Source: a virus
Strand: one strand, 5' to 3'
IMG/VR virus record: IMGVR_UViG_3300049841_000030
Location: 1 to 36,388 of that record
Length of the DNA: 36,388 nucleotides
Shown here: piece by piece, positions 3,687 to 35,601 of the stretch
Numbering within the stretch: the stretch's first letter is position 1
Layout of the letters: each line of letters begins with the position of its first letter
Program-made: the position numbers and the translations under genes
Notes under the pieces: model-generated
The model's input: only the letters and a program-made list of their open reading frames with translations
Told to the model about the DNA's origin: nothing
Databases searched by the model: none

Positions 3687-4040
3687 ATGGCAAACAACGA
3701 GAATCTAATACCAGCAAAAAAAGGTGAAGTGCGAAACCCTAAAGGCAAACCAAAGGGCGTACCGAATAGCCGTACCCGCTTAATGCGCTTATTAGAGATT
3801 ACGCAAGACTTAGAGAACCCAATCACTGGCGAAGTAGAGGGCTTTACTGTGGCTGAGCAAATGGATATGAAGCAAATACTCAAAGCTCAAAAAGGCGACA
3901 GCAAAGCATACTCGGTAATTCTAGACAGGCTAGAGGGCAAGCCAATGCAAGGCTTGGCAATTGACGCAAGTATAAGTGGCGAACTTAAAATAGCACTAGT
4001 AGAGTTTGTTGGTGAAGACAGTACGAATAAAGATACTTAG
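3687..4040 (+). CDS. Putative small terminase subunit (DUF5681-like)
   Basis: The 117-residue protein starts with [20 protein letters not shown] followed by [12 protein letters not shown]. The 'K-G-x-x-x-N-P-K-G-x-P-K-G' element is the hallmark of DUF5681-type proteins, which in phages are found immediately upstream of the large terminase and are annotated as its small subunit. The rest is helical ([47 protein letters not shown]). Its 3' end overlaps the start of TerL by 29 bases. Position and motif agree; DNA binding has not been shown for this protein. Confidence 0.7.
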
Positions 4041-5271
4041 TGTTTTTAGAGAACTGTTTGACGAACAGTGGCGCTATATTATTTACTATGGCGGACGTAG
4101 TAGCGGTAAGAGCCAAAGCGTAGCCCGGGCTTTACTTATACGCGGCAGACAAAAGAAACTGCGAATACTATGTACTCGTGAAATTCAAAACACTATTAAA
4201 GATTCTGTGCATAAGTTGCTCAAAGACATAATCACTGAGTTTGAATTTACTGACTATGTAGTTACAAACGATAGCGTAGTTAATTCTGTCACTGGCACAG
4301 AGTTTATATTTCGTGGCTTGCGCCATAACATCACTGAGATTAAGAGTACTGAGGGTATAGACATATGCTGGGTTGAAGAAGCCCAGAGTATTACCGAAGC
4401 AAGCCTAGACATTATCACACCAACCATTCGTAAGCCGGGCAGTCAAATCATATTCACATTTAACCGCTTTAATGAGCTTGACCCTGTATATGTGCGCTAT
4501 GTGCAGAACCCACCAAAGAACTGCTTTGTTAAAAAGGTGAACTACACAGAGCTTGAAAAGGTTGGCTTACTGCCAGACGTAATCAAACAAGAGATTGATA
4601 ATGACAAAGACAACCCGGCTTTGTTTGCTCACAAGTGGCTAGGTGAGCCAATTGAGCAGAGCGAGCTTAGTATTCTAGGGCGCACTATTGTACTTGACGC
4701 TATGCAGCGTGAGATTGAGGGCGACGGGCAAGAGGTGATTGGCGTTGACGTTGCGCGTATGGGTGATGACCGCACAGTCTTTTGGAAACGCAAGGGTCTT
4801 AAGACGACTGACTTTAAGGTTTATACCAAGCTGCGCACTACCCAAACCTGCGACGAGCTAGAGAAATTTGTAAACTTTGATAAGAAAGCCGAGATTAAAG
4901 TTGATGACACTGGTGTTGGTGGTGGGGTAACTGACGAAATGATTAAGCGCGGTTACAACGTAGTGCCTATTAACTTTGGTAGTAAAGCCGGCGACGAAGA
5001 CAAATACCCTAACTGGATTAGTGAAGCGTGGTTTCATATGGCAGAGATACTGCCCGAAGCTCAATTGCCTTACGAGAGCGACTTGCTTATGGAGTTAAGC
5101 ACCCGCCAATGGAATCAAGACAATAAGGGTAAGCGGCGGGTCGAGGGTAAGATTGACTACAAGAAGCGCGGCTTTCGTAGCCCTGACTTAGCTGACGCGT
5201 GTATTATCTGCTACGGTATGTCAAAGACCCCGGGCGTTCTAGGGTACTATTCTGGCATAGCTGATGAGTGA
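4012..5271 (+). CDS. terL: Terminase large subunit
   Basis: The packaging motor ATPase and nuclease. With GTG 4012 as start (TTG 4006 is also open) the product is 419 residues. Walker A is [12 protein letters not shown] (about 25-36). Walker B is [10 protein letters not shown] (about 117-126) with the catalytic Glu pair. The coupling motif is [10 protein letters not shown]. The RNase H-like nuclease has [15 protein letters not shown] (about 243-257), [16 protein letters not shown] (about 297-312) and a final acidic DLADACII (about 395-402). This is the PBSX/Terminase_3 type. It overlaps the small terminase gene by 29 bases, so it is probably coupled. Confidence 0.95.
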
Positions 5272-5333: not shown

Positions 5334-7073
5334 ATGGGACTGATAGACAGACTGTTTGCCAACACTTTAGCAACGCGTGAAGCTCAATTTAAAAAGGAAC
5401 TTACGCAAGAGGTTAAAAAACAAGGGCAGAAGAATGTAGAAAAGATTAGTACGGCGGTAGCAGACAAACTTGAAAAGTCTGCAAGTAACACGCCGGGTGT
5501 TTTGCGTTACCAATACGACACGTCGCCAGAGCGAATGAGTAACCTAACCTCTAAACGCAAGCCTGACAGCAATGTTAGCTTTGATGTGTTACGGCGCTTT
5601 AGCGTAGCCCACGAAGTAAGCCGGGCTTGTATCAATGCTCGTAAGCGACAGATAACCCAGCTCGATTGGGACATTGTAGCCAAGAATGTTAGTGACAAAA
5701 CAAACTACGACAATCAAAAAGCCGGGGTAGTAGAGTTTTTTGAAACCCTAGGCGGACAGCAGAACTACCGTACTGTAGTAAACAAAGTTATTGAAGACCT
5801 ACTAGTACTAGACGCTGTAGCACTATATAAGCAAAGAGCTGTCAATAGTAGTTTACTCTGGCTTACGCCGGTAGATGGTAGCACTATTAGATTGCGCGTT
5901 GATGATAGCGGCAGTACCCCTCTGCCGCCTGAAATTGCTTATAAACAGGTTATTCGTGGTGAGATTGTAGCTGAGCTTACAACTGACGAAATGGTTTACG
6001 CTATGATGAACCCGCGAACTAACAGCCCTTACGGTCTAGCCCCACTTGAAAGCTTGATAATTGTAGTATCTAGTGCGCTTAAGGCTGGCACATATAACTT
6101 GAGCTATTTAACAGACGGTAATATACCAGAGGGCATATTTAATGTACCTGAAAACTGGACACCGCAAATGATTAAAGACTTTCAAGAAAACTGGGACGCT
6201 GCAATGGCTGGTAACGAAATGGCTACAAGTAAGCTTAAATTTACGCCGGGTGGTACTGGTGCTGGTTATATGCCTACCAAGAAGCCAACCGATATGGCTT
6301 GGGGTGAATTCAATACTTGGCTAATGAAAGTTACTTGTGCAATCTTTGATGTTCAGCCACAAGAGATTGGCTTTGCCCAAGACGTTAATAAAGCTAACGG
6401 CGAAGTACAAGACAATATCACAGACCGCCGAAGTATCGCCCCGCTTGCTAGCTTTTTAGAAGAAATATTTAACGGCATTATTAAGAACGACCTTGGCTTA
6501 CCACACCTAGAGTTTAAGTACCTAGGCTTAGACGACAAGGACGATATGAAAAACGCCGAAACTAACGAGGTGCTTATTAGAAGCGGGCAACGTACCGTAG
6601 ACGAGCTACGCCAAGATGACGGCTTAGAGCCTATAGGTATGGACGTACCAATCATTATTGGTAACTATAGCGTACTAAGCAGCGAGCCAGCCCCAGTAGC
6701 CCCTACTATTATGACCCCAGCCCAAACAGATGTACCTACCGCAGTAGTACCAGAAGCTACCACGCCAGCCCCAGACAATACCGACAAACGAATGATTGAG
6801 CTTGTTACCGAGCTGCGTACATTCCGCAAAATGGCTATCAACCGGCTTAAAGAAGAAAAACCACTACGCCCATTCACTAGCGCTGTGTTACCTGCAACAG
6901 TCTGTAACGAAATGAACAAGCGTTTAGCTGGTGCTGACATTGACCAAGCCAAAGAGATATTTAAAGAATATATGCAAGACTACCAAGTTAAGTTTATTGC
7001 CGACGTTATGGAACTCAAGACTAAATTGGTTGCTGCTCGCGAGATTGATAACAAGGTGAATAAACTGCTATGA
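5334..7073 (+). CDS. Portal protein (HK97-like)
   Basis: This 579-residue protein lies directly after TerL and before MuF, the usual portal position. Recognisable portal features are the N-terminal coiled region (residues 18-50), RACINARKRQITQLDWDIVA (about 98-117) and VVNKVIEDLLVLDAVALYKQ (about 148-167). LWLTPVDGSTIRLRVDD, YAMMNPRTNSPYGLAPLESL (about 224-243) and the late clip/stem region WLMKVTCAIFDVQPQEIGFA follow. The C-terminal 150 residues add a Pro/Thr/Ala-rich linker and a helical tail. It forms the dodecameric ring through which DNA enters and to which the tail is joined. Its stop overlaps the next start (ATGA). Confidence 0.9.
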   Translation: MGLIDRLFANTLATREAQFKKELTQEVKKQGQKNVEKISTAVADKLEKSASNTPGVLRYQYDTSPERMSNLTSKRKPDSNVSFDVLRRFSVAHEVSRACINARKRQITQLDWDIVAKNVSDKTNYDNQKAGVVEFFETLGGQQNYRTVVNKVIEDLLVLDAVALYKQRAVNSSLLWLTPVDGSTIRLRVDDSGSTPLPPEIAYKQVIRGEIVAELTTDEMVYAMMNPRTNSPYGLAPLESLIIVVSSALKAGTYNLSYLTDGNIPEGIFNVPENWTPQMIKDFQENWDAAMAGNEMATSKLKFTPGGTGAGYMPTKKPTDMAWGEFNTWLMKVTCAIFDVQPQEIGFAQDVNKANGEVQDNITDRRSIAPLASFLEEIFNGIIKNDLGLPHLEFKYLGLDDKDDMKNAETNEVLIRSGQRTVDELRQDDGLEPIGMDVPIIIGNYSVLSSEPAPVAPTIMTPAQTDVPTAVVPEATTPAPDNTDKRMIELVTELRTFRKMAINRLKEEKPLRPFTSAVLPATVCNEMNKRLAGADIDQAKEIFKEYMQDYQVKFIADVMELKTKLVAAREIDNKVNKLL

Positions 7074-22925: not shown

Positions 22926-23473
22926 CATACACTGCACAAACTTTTACGGCTGGTGAACAGCCTACTACTACAAAGTGGAATCTGCTTTGGAGTAATGACG
23001 CGGCAATGAATGACGGTACTGGTATTGCTAACCTAGCTTTGAACACAACCACTATTTCCAACCCTTATAAGTTTAATGTTCGCCGAAATGCGGCGGCTAA
23101 CACCGGGAACGGTACTTTTGCAAAAATAGTATGGGACACAGAAATTTTTGATACTAATGGTAATTTTGCAACAGGTACATATACTGCACCAGTCGCAGGC
23201 TTTTACTTATTCAGCTCGGCTGTTCAAGTGGCTGTAGGTGCTGCCGGTGTAGACCTAGCGCTTGAGTTGTATAAGAATGGGGCTATTTACAGGAGATTTG
23301 CAGAAGTTGCGAATGGTAACGTCTCGGACGAAATGATTGGGGGTAGTATACTAGCACAGTCGGCTACTAACGATACTTGGGACGTTTATATATATGCTAG
23401 TTCGGCAAAAGCTCTACAGGTTGGTGATAGTAGATATAATTACTTTACTGGCTTTCTGGTAAGCCAGACATAG
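22922..23473 (+). CDS. C1q/TNF-like receptor-binding protein B
   Basis: This 183-residue protein has the same N-terminal module as A (YTAQTFTAGEQPTTTKWNLL, then WSNDAAMNDGTG). A C1q-like jelly roll follows: KIVWDTEIFDTNGNFATGTY, TAPVAGFYLFSSAVQVAV, ELYKNGAIYRRF, TWDVYIYASSAKALQVGD and a terminal FTGFLVSQ. These are the standard strands of bacterial and phage C1q domains, which form trimers. It is coupled by ATGA to gene A. Use of one attachment module with two heads suggests two receptors or alternative tips. Confidence 0.7.
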   Translation: MTYTAQTFTAGEQPTTTKWNLLWSNDAAMNDGTGIANLALNTTTISNPYKFNVRRNAAANTGNGTFAKIVWDTEIFDTNGNFATGTYTAPVAGFYLFSSAVQVAVGAAGVDLALELYKNGAIYRRFAEVANGNVSDEMIGGSILAQSATNDTWDVYIYASSAKALQVGDSRYNYFTGFLVSQT

Positions 23474-25487: not shown

Positions 25488-25604
25488 GTGGAAAAACCTG
25501 TTGATAAACTGGAAAAAGTAGAAACCAAAACAGAAGAACCAGATTTTTTAGAGGGGTTGGTGTGCAGCATACTGAACCCCGACAGTTGCGAAGCCTGTCA
25601 ATAG
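25488..25604 (+). CDS. Small acidic Cys-rich protein, 38 aa
   Basis: GTG 25488 gives MEKPVDKLEKVETKTEEPDF followed by a Cys-containing tail (VCSILNPDSCEACQ). The ribosome site is weak and it starts only three bases after the holin stop. It may be a small lysis regulator or be untranslated. Confidence 0.4.
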   Translation: MEKPVDKLEKVETKTEEPDFLEGLVCSILNPDSCEACQ

Positions 25605-25606
25605 CT

Positions 25607-25699
25607 ATGTGGGAAGCCCTTATCTTTACGATAATGGGCTTTTCTGTTGGCTTCTTCGTGGGCGGTGTAATAGGTATGTTAATTGGTGAAGCAGAATAA
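25607..25699 (+). CDS. Tiny Gly-rich membrane peptide, 30 aa
   Basis: ATG 25607 follows two bases after the previous stop. The product is one membrane helix with GxxxG-type packing (ALIFTIMGFSVGFFVGGVIG). It ends the plus-strand lysis operon. It may be a holin partner or regulator. Confidence 0.45.
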   Translation: MWEALIFTIMGFSVGFFVGGVIGMLIGEAE

Positions 25700-25702
25700 A
25701 AA

Positions 25703-25761
25703 AACCCTGTGGAAAACAGGGTGTGTGGTAGTTCCTTTTTTTTCTGCGCTAGGAACTACCA
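25703..25761. terminator. Terminator zone between convergent operons
   Basis: CCCTGT/ACAGGG (25705-25721) forms a hairpin; on the minus strand it is followed by seven T, a clean intrinsic terminator for the minus operon. A second inverted repeat of 10 bp, TGGTAGTTCC/GGAACTACCA (25726-25735, 25752-25761), has a T-rich loop and could stop plus-strand messages. A further CCAAG/CTTGG pair lies at 25760-25779. Confidence 0.75.
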
Positions 25762-25806: not shown

Positions 25807-26095
25807 CTAACCCTCGTGTAGCTCTCTTAATACGCTAGAGCGCTCACGCTGGATTATTTGAATGTTCTTTTGCAGGCGGGCAGATTGTTTGTAAAGAGCG
25901 GCTAAACGGCGGTCTAAGCGTTCTAGACGCAGCCGGTTTTCTGGCTCTCTCGACGACTGTGATTTCTTTGAAGTCGGTTGACCATATGACACGGTTCGTA
26001 TACCACACTTTCTCTGTGACTTCACAGAAATGCACCTCGGCGTGGACGAATAGACCAATTACTTCACTCCTTTGGTGGCAGAATGGACAAATCAT
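25807..26095 (-). CDS. Zinc-finger and coiled-coil protein, split by a +1 shift
   Basis: The upstream frame (ATG 26095) begins MICPFCHQRSEVIGLF with a CxxC pair and a later Cys (VHFCEVTEKVWYTNRVIW, FKEITVVE). It then decays and stops at 25844. The other frame, one base ahead, supplies a sensible coiled coil (RLERLDRRLAALYKQSARLQ, KNIQIIQRERSSVLRELHEG) to TAG 25807. Joining them gives a 95-residue protein. The switch probably lies in the 25930-25960 stretch, where AGAAAAC is the only homopolymer. It could be an indel, a programmed +1 shift or two overlapping genes. Its start overlaps the stop of the gene before it (ATGA). Confidence 0.5.
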
Positions 26096-26238
26096 TTCAG
26101 GTCTTCTTCGCGAGCGAGCTTTTGACCGTCCTTGGTTATAACGAACATAGTGCGAGTGCGCCCGCAGTAATGTAGAACTTTCTTATGGAACGTGCTGATA
26201 ATTTTCTTGTTGCAATAGGTACAGCGCGTATTCAGCAA
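26092..26238 (-). CDS. Small zinc-finger protein
   Basis: TTG 26238 follows an AGGGAG site on the minus strand by six bases. The 48-residue product has CTYCNKK (CxxC) and HYCGRTR, followed by MFVITKDGQKLAREEDLK. Its stop overlaps the ATG at 26095, so it is the first gene of a coupled two-gene minus-strand operon facing the lysis operon. DNA or RNA binding is plausible for such a finger but not shown. Confidence 0.6.
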   Translation of the reverse strand: MLNTRCTYCNKKIISTFHKKVLHYCGRTRTMFVITKDGQKLAREEDLK

Positions 26239-26389
26239 GGTACACTCCCTTCACTAGAGTCATATATATTTTCTCACGAATAGGAGTATGATAACGGTAA
26301 GAGCAAGTACCCCTTATTAGTATTCAAAGACTAAAACTTAGTACAAATTAGTAATGTGAACTACGAAATTACTCAAGAAAAATATTTTC

Positions 26390-26416
26390 ACCGCGTCAGG
26401 CTCTTGCGCGGTTTTT
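26390..26416 (+). terminator. Intrinsic terminator 1
   Basis: ACCGCG (26390-26395) pairs with CGCGGT (26407-26412) over an 11-base loop, followed by a T run. It would stop plus-strand transcription from the left before the promoter at 26486. Confidence 0.8.
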
Positions 26417-26439
26417 AAGTTTGGGTATACAATGATAAA

Positions 26440-26465
26440 GACTTTTCTTTTGACATTGAAAAGTC
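26440..26465 (+). promoter_or_regulatory. Inverted repeat GACTTTTC/GAAAAGTC
   Basis: Eight-base perfect arms (26440-26447, 26458-26465) surround a TTGACA (26450-26455). A repressor or activator at this site could cover that -35-like hexamer. A matching -10 is weak. Confidence 0.5.
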
Positions 26466-26473
26466 ACTTTAGT

Positions 26474-26525
26474 AGAGATTATCTCTTGACAAAAAGAGGG
26501 TGGCTTTTGTATACTGATATTATCA
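26474..26525 (+). promoter_or_regulatory. Promoter with two operator-like palindromes
   Basis: TTGACA (26486-26491) and TATACT (26510-26515) are 18 bases apart. The palindrome AGAGAT-T-ATCTCT (26474-26486) abuts the -35, and TGATA-T-TATCA (26515-26525) spans the likely first base. Both could be operators. Confidence 0.65.
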
Positions 26526-26566
26526 ATGTCATTAGAAACGAAAGCCGCTGTTCAAGCGGTTTTTTC
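26522..26566 (+). ncRNA. Possible ~45-nt promoter-terminator RNA
   Basis: The promoter at 26486-26515 would start near 26522 and terminator 2 ends by 26566. No gene fits in between. This may be a small RNA or an attenuated leader for the early operon. Its existence is inferred from the signals alone. Confidence 0.4.
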
Positions 26567-26568
26567 GT
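26538..26568 (+). terminator. Intrinsic terminator 2
   Basis: CCGCT (26545-26549) pairs with AGCGG (26555-26559) over a five-base loop, followed by six T. Flanking ACGAAA/TTTCGT extend the stem. It lies about 45 bases after the promoter start at 26522. Confidence 0.85.
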
Positions 26569-26619
26569 CTAAAGCATAAACCTCGACAGTAGTTTACAAG
26601 GAGTTCTGCTGTATAAATA

Positions 26620-26713
26620 AAAAGGGTTTTGGGTGGGGTTACTCTAGTGTCCCCACACTCACACTAGAGGGGCTGTTTTATAGCGATTTCAGCCCCTCGC
26701 CCTAAGCCCTTTT
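26620..26713 (+). other. Nested multi-stem structure
   Basis: Outer arms AAAAGGG (26620-26626) and CCCTTTT (26707-26713), next GGG (26631-26633) and CCC (26700-26702), enclose CTCTAGTGT/ACACTAGAG (26642-26650, 26661-26669) and GAGGGGCTG/CAGCCCCTC (26667-26675, 26690-26698). The two inner hairpins share three bases, so they partly exclude each other; GTGGGG/CCCCAC (26633-26638, 26651-26656) is a third option. A structured RNA, switch or origin element is possible. Confidence 0.5.
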
Positions 26714-26723
26714 ACTAAATATC

Positions 26724-26793
26724 TTGCTTGTAAGCAGATGATAGTGCGGGCAACGCCCACCGTCTGCGACCCGCGACCTCACTTGCTTATAAG
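26724..26793. repeat. Direct repeat TTGCTTRTAAG flanking a hairpin
   Basis: TTGCTTGTAAG (26724-26734) and TTGCTTATAAG (26783-26793) differ at one base and each is partly palindromic. Between them GCAGA/TCTGC (26734-26738, 26763-26767) encloses GGGC/GCCC (26748-26751, 26755-26758). This layout is suggestive of an iteron or origin element. Confidence 0.45.
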
Positions 26794-26872
26794 AGTTCTA
26801 ATAAATGAGGGTATAAATACTAAATCAGATTCCTAGAATATATGAGGGATAGAAGACGGTGTTCATATCTGG

Positions 26873-26899
26873 TTTTGTTGTATAAAAAAGTCAACAAAA
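26873..26899 (+). promoter_or_regulatory. Inverted repeat upstream of early promoter
   Basis: TTTTGTTG (26873-26880) and CAACAAAA (26892-26899) are perfect 8-base arms with an 11-base centre, ending 15 bases before the early -35. A regulator site is likely. Confidence 0.55.
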
Positions 26900-26914
26900 A
26901 GTACTGAATATCTA

Positions 26915-26943
26915 TTGACATTTAACAAGTATAAGAGTAATAT
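26915..26943 (+). promoter_or_regulatory. Early promoter
   Basis: TTGACA (26915-26920), a 17-base spacer and TAATAT (26938-26943) give a near-consensus sigma-70 promoter. It would start close to 26950, ahead of the long early operon at 26984. Confidence 0.8.
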
Positions 26944-26983
26944 AGACAGTACAAAATAGTCTAATTTTGAAAGGGTATTAAGA

Positions 26984-27214
26984 ATGAATGGTAACGACCA
27001 ATATTTAGAGAATATCGAACGACAGTGGGGTAATTTTGACCCACCAGAGAATGACATATATGAAGCCCTAGGCAAACAGCTTAGCCACGCCAAGGCTATA
27101 GCCAAGTCTGGTGACAAAGCGGCTCAAGATATTCAAGCTATGGCAGAGCGAGAGCAAGAACGGGCTGACGAGTTGCGCGATTCAATGCGCGAAGACGGCA
27201 TAGGTGGTTACTAA
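26984..27214 (+). CDS. Early protein, 76 aa
   Basis: This is the first gene after the early promoter, with a GAAAGGG site. The protein is very charged and helical (QLSHAKAIAKSGDKAAQDIQ, then AMAEREQERADELRDSMRED). I recognise no family. Its stop overlaps the next ATG by one base (TAATG). Confidence 0.65.
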   Translation: MNGNDQYLENIERQWGNFDPPENDIYEALGKQLSHAKAIAKSGDKAAQDIQAMAEREQERADELRDSMREDGIGGY

Positions 27215-27897
27215 TGACTAAAGAAGCTATCGCAGAAGTTGAGATTGCAGAGCCGGTGGCTGTAATACCCCGTGCTGTAATGGCAGGTGCAGCCCAGCTC
27301 AAGCGCCAAATGACCCGTGACCAAGACCTGCGCAAAGTAATCAATGAATATATTGATAATAATATGGAAAGTGGCAAAGACTATGGCTCAATCACAATCA
27401 AGGGCGCAGTAAGTAAGCCAAGCCTACTCAAGCCCGGCGCTGAAAAGTTTTGCTCGTTATTCAAAGTGCGTCCAACCTTTCGCAAAGACGAAGACACTTG
27501 TAATATGCTTGGTGACACGCCCGGCATTGTGGCTTATGTTTGTGAACTGGTTGACACCAAAGGTTTAATTATTGGCGAGGGTAGGGGTGCATACAAAGTG
27601 GAACTAACTGATTCAGACTTTAATATAAACAAAGCTATTAAGATAGCCGAGAAACGTGCGCAGGTAGACGCTGTGCTGCGTACTGGCTGTTTAAGCGACT
27701 TCTTTACTCAAGACGTAGAAGACGCGCCACAGGGGGTATTAGACAACCAAGCCAAAGCCCCAATGACAGGCGCACCAAGCGCGGCTCAACTAGGCTTGAT
27801 TGATAAGCTGGTAAGAGAAAAGGGGCTTGACCAAGAACCGCCACCAGAAACTAAGCAAGAAGCAAGCGATACTATTGCGGAGTTAATGAAGCTATGA
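27214..27897 (+). CDS. Putative recombination (single-strand annealing-like) protein
   Basis: This 227-residue protein has the element SKPSLLKPGAEKFCSLFKVR (about 67-86), then EGRGAYKVELT and KAIKIAEKRAQVDAVLRTGC followed by SDFFTQDVED (about 149-180). 'K-P-G-A-E-K' with 'A-x-K-R-A-x-V-D-A-x-L...F-T-Q-D' is a common phage family that I associate with Rad52/Sak-like annealing proteins; the assignment is from memory of the pattern. The C-terminal AAQLGLIDKLVREKGLDQEP is a small helical domain typical of that family. It is the only replication- or recombination-type protein found. Confidence 0.6.
   Translation: MTKEAIAEVEIAEPVAVIPRAVMAGAAQLKRQMTRDQDLRKVINEYIDNNMESGKDYGSITIKGAVSKPSLLKPGAEKFCSLFKVRPTFRKDEDTCNMLGDTPGIVAYVCELVDTKGLIIGEGRGAYKVELTDSDFNINKAIKIAEKRAQVDAVLRTGCLSDFFTQDVEDAPQGVLDNQAKAPMTGAPSAAQLGLIDKLVREKGLDQEPPPETKQEASDTIAELMKL

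Positions 27898-32938: not shown

Positions 32939-35601
<2,663 letters not shown>

Follow-up and report, generated by a model that had tools for sequence, protein, structure and literature searches.

A candidate untranslated, highly structured RNA behind a post-lysis promoter of an uncultured GroEL-encoding phage group

What is the function of a 94-nt block of nested inverted repeats (positions 26620-26713) in a 36388-base virus record? The block is located in the largest non-coding gap of this record (hereafter the window, meaning the whole stretch of DNA analyzed), between the lysis genes with leftward small ORFs and a rightward small-gene operon. The window encodes terminase, portal, GH25/CHAP endolysin, glycosyltransferases and a GroEL-type chaperonin (33183-34742, 519 aa, phrog_5725), the last of which is present in most relatives checked. 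No tRNA genes were found in the window. The relatives with portal identity of approximately 42-55 % are exclusively uncultured contigs, and BLASTn among named phages revealed no close relatives. Nor did the collections searched yield any member similar enough for covariation analysis.

A sequence-only reading had described two 9-base perfect hairpins that share three bases, together with a third alternative, within nested outer and inner arms. All of these elements were located in the sequence, and the block was predicted to fold as an independent branched domain:

26620-26626 and 26707-26713: outer arms, AAAAGGG and CCCTTTT
26631-26633 and 26700-26702: inner arms, GGG and CCC
26642-26650 and 26661-26669: first 9-bp hairpin, CTCTAGTGT and ACACTAGAG
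26667-26675 and 26690-26698: second 9-bp hairpin, GAGGGGCTG and CAGCCCCTC
26667-26669: GAG, common to both 9-bp hairpins
26633-26638 and 26651-26656: third alternative helix, GTGGGG and CCCCAC
26620-26713, + strand: branched domain with outer helix 26620-26629/26704-26713, inner helix 26631-26637/26696-26702 and hairpins 26642-26669 and 26670-26695

The stems of the block are not due to chance. When the block was shuffled with dinucleotide composition preserved, two perfect 9-bp hairpins were not obtained in any of 5000 shuffles, and one such hairpin was obtained in 0.9 %. On the + strand, the RNA fold has an energy of -45.3 kcal/mol (z -5.3 to -5.7), and the z score for the - strand is -2.7 to -3.1. 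In a folding scan of the window, no other 100-nt stretch of the + strand had a GC-corrected energy as low as that of the block. The same fold was obtained for the block alone and in context.

The block belongs to a larger structured unit, which begins right behind a promoter with an 11/12 consensus match and stops at approximately 26800:

26486-26515, + strand: sigma70-type promoter, TTGACA-18-TATACT
26522-26800, + strand: candidate untranslated RNA, whole (z -7.08 on the + strand, -2.72 on the - strand)
26540-26564, + strand: H1, promoter-proximal terminator-like hairpin, GAAAGCCGCTGTTCAAGCGGTTTTTTC, about 20 nt past the expected start
26586-26612, + strand: H2, predicted hairpin, ACAGTAG and CTGCTGT
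26727-26793, + strand: H4, predicted long hairpin, CTTGTAAGCAG ... CTTGCTTATAAG, with inner GCGGG/CCCGC
26915-26943, + strand: second promoter-like site, TTGACA-17-TAATAT, serving the downstream genes, with unstructured sequence behind it
26984-27897, + strand: first rightward genes downstream of the block, encoding 76 aa (no family) and 227 aa (phrog_10048, unknown function)

Judged from the promoter sequence, transcription would be expected to start near 26522. Both flanks (26240-26486 and 26801-26983) are ordinary, with z scores of about -1.2, and the part behind the block (26714-26800) has a z score of -3.8 on the + strand. Among the five rightward sites in the window with at least 10/12 matches, the 26486 promoter is followed by the most structured 200 nt; the sequence downstream of a promoter-like site at 23413, inside a coding sequence, also has a z score of -4.9. 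No ORF of at least 30 aa was found over 26573-26737. H1 was predicted by folding and its U-tract was seen in the sequence; by eye it fits an intrinsic terminator (GC-rich stem followed by a U-tract). A simple terminator scan did not list H1 on the + strand, probably because the stem absorbs Ts.

A 19-nt inverted repeat (26444-26462 and 26520-26538, 84 %, shared TGACATTGA) brackets the 26486 promoter and overlaps the expected transcription start; as far as its sequence tells, it could be a pair of repressor sites.

With moderate confidence, we interpret 26522-26800 as an untranslated, highly structured RNA that would be made from the 26486-26515 promoter and would likely be a regulatory leader or small RNA in a transcription-control region. 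The structured RNA of the sequence-only reading is supported: the fold is strong, strand-biased, non-coding and located behind a promoter, and an analogous structured stretch occurs in a related phage (see below). The element is real and strongly structured, is probably RNA, and would be a new orphan among phage untranslated leaders and small RNAs.

The hairpins had also been called mutually exclusive, which holds for one pair of helices and not for the other. In nested folding, GTGGGG/CCCCAC and CTCTAGTGT/ACACTAGAG do exclude each other, but the two 9-bp hairpins clash at three bases only, so that nearly all of both can form together. The nested prediction consists of an open three-way junction (approximately 79 %) and the GTGGGG/CCCCAC form (approximately 16 %), which lie within 1.2-1.6 kcal/mol of each other and both retain the outer helix as well as the third hairpin's core. 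No ribosome-binding site or U-tract is hidden or exposed by these alternative folds. When the growing transcript was folded, the GTGGGG/CCCCAC hairpin appeared first and the junction only once approximately 26706-26716 had been made.

Nested-only folding is unable to reveal a pseudoknot. The GTGGGG/CCCCAC and CTCTAGTGT/ACACTAGAG helices may nevertheless form together, as their spacing is exactly that of an H-type pseudoknot, with interlocked helices, short L1 and L3, and an L2 of 0-1 nt:

26633-26669 (37 nt), + strand: candidate H-type pseudoknot; S1 26633-26638/26651-26656 (6 bp), L1 3 nt, S2 26642-26650/26661-26669 (9 bp), L2 0 nt, L3 4 nt

With 15 bp, this is the longest Watson-Crick pseudoknot in the window (maximum of 14 bp in 12 whole-window shuffles), and only 1 of 1000 block shuffles reached 13 bp. 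The energy of the pseudoknotted block was roughly estimated at between -39.5 and -47.5 kcal/mol, according to the penalty chosen, compared with -45.3 kcal/mol for the nested fold.

Transcription from the 26486 promoter would meet the terminator-like H1 first, about 20 nt after the start, and some polymerases may stop there. Those that pass H1 would produce an RNA with the block as its core, a self-contained branched domain. During transcription, the 6-bp and 9-bp helices would probably interlock as the H-type pseudoknot, which may later refold into the open three-way junction. Such an RNA may act in cis by attenuation or read-through control, or in trans as a stable RNA.

The corresponding position in related phages was compared using 200-nt folding scans covering early regions and a set of 40 promoter-like sites from matching regions of the window and related phages. 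Of the 40 sites, the first rightward post-lysis promoters of relative G010 (z -7.2) and the window (z -5.9) had the most structured sequence downstream, and the post-lysis promoters of G009 and G014 ranked fourth and sixth (z -4.6 and -4.3). In G013, the 200 nt past the same promoter are weakly structured (z -2.1), and in G015 no post-lysis rightward promoter of this sort, followed by structured sequence, was found. In G010 (portal identity 52 %), the promoter is located in a non-coding gap before small genes and is followed by a structured stretch (2655-2850; z -7.0 on the + strand, -2.5 on the - strand), beyond which the sequence is unstructured. This stretch shows no sequence similarity to that of the window.

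In G009, G013 and G014, the promoter is directly followed by a nearly invariant hairpin, AAAGCCATAGCTGCCGAATACCACCGAGCTATGGCTTGTCGCTTTTT (L076:15222-15316(-), L078:5580-5677(-) and L030:13232-13332(+)), with a fully conserved loop and a U-tract; in G014 the stem has altered length and letters and is still perfect. The conserved loop suggests, at the level of sequence, an attenuator or a short RNA. The recurrence of position is analogy and not homology, because the structured elements match neither that of the window nor each other. By this analogy, it speaks for a regulatory leader or RNA being located here in the genome.

G010 also carries a 24-nt perfect inverted repeat with copies 1.8 kb apart (L072 minus strand, 2664-2687 and 4526-4549 of the reverse complement of L072:1-10900). 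The repeat is itself an imperfect palindrome, TACGAGTAGAAGATTCGTA, with one copy at the post-lysis transcript start and the other behind a 12/12 promoter, and may be regarded from its sequence as a candidate operator or RNA-RNA pairing site.

An extension of the preferred reading is that the GroEL-encoding group possesses a new, fast-evolving class of phage regulatory RNA, in which the first rightward post-lysis promoter drives a strongly folded, pseudoknot-containing RNA whose position and architecture persist and whose sequence does not. We consider this rather unlikely; a host factor or a defence system engaged in an arms race with the RNA would be a possible driver.

Family and homologue searches returned no relative of the block. 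None of the 4227 Rfam models matched the window at the gathering threshold, and the best weak match over the block (MIR405, 19.7 bits, E-value 1.5, gathering 102) is at chance level. Approximately 2 Mb of related and pattern-selected contigs yielded no homologue of the block, either by sequence or by structure, and neither the leader-hairpin model of G009/G013/G014 nor the model of the G010 element found a counterpart in the window.

Several candidates were rejected. An exact 16-mer of the hairpin loop region had three matches in viral contigs, with no relation seen. The arm pattern GAGGGGCTG-N-CAGCCCCTC had at least 119 matches, of which 80 loci were screened with a covariance model of the block and rejected as common hairpins (best E-value 0.025, partial stems only). 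Homologues of the downstream 227-aa protein are distant and have no block nearby.

The closest known systems include the putL and putR antiterminator RNAs of HK022, which follow an early promoter directly or at a distance of some 270 nt and are active as nascent RNA with tightly packed helices (PMC9378689). The put RNA has about 70 nt, two stem-loops and a conserved sequence, and acts via the zinc-binding domain of the RNAP beta' subunit (PMC9378689). The candidate RNA resembles put as a phage-encoded structured RNA behind a promoter, and its position would fit by analogy; it differs in being about 280 nt long with a branched, possibly pseudoknotted core.

The lambdoid late promoter is followed by a short untranslated Q-type leader with a terminator-like hairpin (PMC6606751), and H1 likewise lies shortly past the promoter here. 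However, no Q-like gene was identified, the large block has no counterpart in the Q-type leader, and the present element sits after, not before, the lysis genes. The ornate GOLLD and ROOL RNAs are also structured non-coding phage RNAs; they are large (many GOLLD members exceed 800 nt), of unknown function, widely conserved and often found near tRNA islands (PMC12286853). The unit described here is much smaller and has neither an Rfam match nor tRNA genes in its window.

Type III toxin-antitoxin RNAs (ToxI-like) consist of tandem pseudoknot repeats upstream of a ToxN-like gene. The 37-nt candidate pseudoknot, which lies behind a promoter and close to a terminator-like hairpin, resembles this arrangement. 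This type is not supported, as there is no tandem repeat of the pseudoknot unit and no toxin or defence family match in the neighbouring genes.

The main rival to the RNA reading is a stack of partly bidirectional terminators, formed by H1 and the block. Such a stack would keep the rightward operon insulated from the late/lysis and leftward genes, and the elaborate inner arms would serve no purpose of their own. Bidirectional terminators typically have flanks like AAAAGGG/CCCTTTT, the - strand end of the block (CCCTTTTTATTTAT) is a good U-tract, and the block ends in CCCTTTTACT, which could be part of a terminator. Furthermore, T runs close both H1 and a hairpin at 26389-26416, the convergent stretch at 25560-25760 resembles a terminator, and late terminator hairpins occur in the same gap of G009, G013 and G014. 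However, the U-tract on the + strand (TTTTACTA) is weak and is itself paired in the stem, the terminator scan made no call at the block, and with 80 nt between its closing arms the hairpin would form slowly. Immediately upstream there is no end of a rightward late gene, the nearest genes there being leftward, and on the right-hand side no leftward gene is present. A terminator stack also leaves H4, the 15-bp pseudoknot and the 9-bp inner hairpin unexplained, and we regard it as somewhat unlikely.

The 26389-26416 hairpin (CACCGCG...CGCGGTTTTTAAG) is located upstream of the 26486 promoter and has no obvious transcript to end.

A DNA element is distinctly improbable; the inverted repeats would then form cruciforms or bind proteins in a replication origin, a packaging site or a multi-operator region. 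In its favour, the largest non-coding gap has long and perfect inverted repeats, a further inverted repeat surrounds the promoter, and no polymerase or primase gene was recognized among the proteins searched. The folding energy, however, is much stronger on one strand, with 10 of 83 pairs being G-U on the + strand, and the terminase gene (4006-5271) is distant. The origin proposed from the sequence also lacks iteron-like direct repeats in the region, and the GC skew rises steadily through the site without a turn.

A ligand-controlled leader of the downstream operon, toggling between the nested alternatives, is very improbable, even though the conformers differ by at most 1.2-1.6 kcal/mol, a pseudoknot is possible and the fold switches during transcription at about 26706-26716. 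Aptamers of riboswitches show strong conservation, whereas the block has no homologue in the contigs searched and no Rfam match. Neither a Shine-Dalgarno sequence nor a terminator U-tract changes state, and the next gene starts at 26984, 270 nt past the block, with its own promoter-like site (26915) in between. The riboswitch-like leader is not supported. Chance clustering of inverted repeats in a non-coding gap, which a single sequence without conservation might suggest, is hardly credible given the shuffles above, a z score of -7 and a second phage (G010) with the same layout at the same place.

Without transcriptomes, untranslated regulatory RNAs of phages are difficult to detect, and the phage group concerned here is an uncultured one. 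The locus offers a precise, testable candidate, with a promoter, a predicted start site, domain borders and a candidate pseudoknot whose helices can be separately broken and restored.

Long hairpins with different stems and a common loop, GGAGGTGCAACT(A/T)C, were also observed in early-region segments (L074, L030) of G012 (approximately 6021-6065) and G009 (approximately 6300-6345). The loop resembles a ribosome-binding site, GGAGGTGCAAACT, near the downstream start in G012.

A capsid alignment scan of genome contigs found one relative (60 %), on a contig in a Patescibacteria metagenome bin, which is a weak hint at the host. A 380-genome sample of Patescibacteria gave two further matches, both weak and partial, and the portal alignment scan of genome contigs found no relative.

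On the minus strand of the window (25807-26238), leftward ORFs of 48 and 83 aa contain CxxC motifs. The minus-strand ORF 25844-26095 overlaps ORF 25807-26058 in another frame, and the two resemble halves of one protein, possibly as a result of a frameshift or sequencing error.
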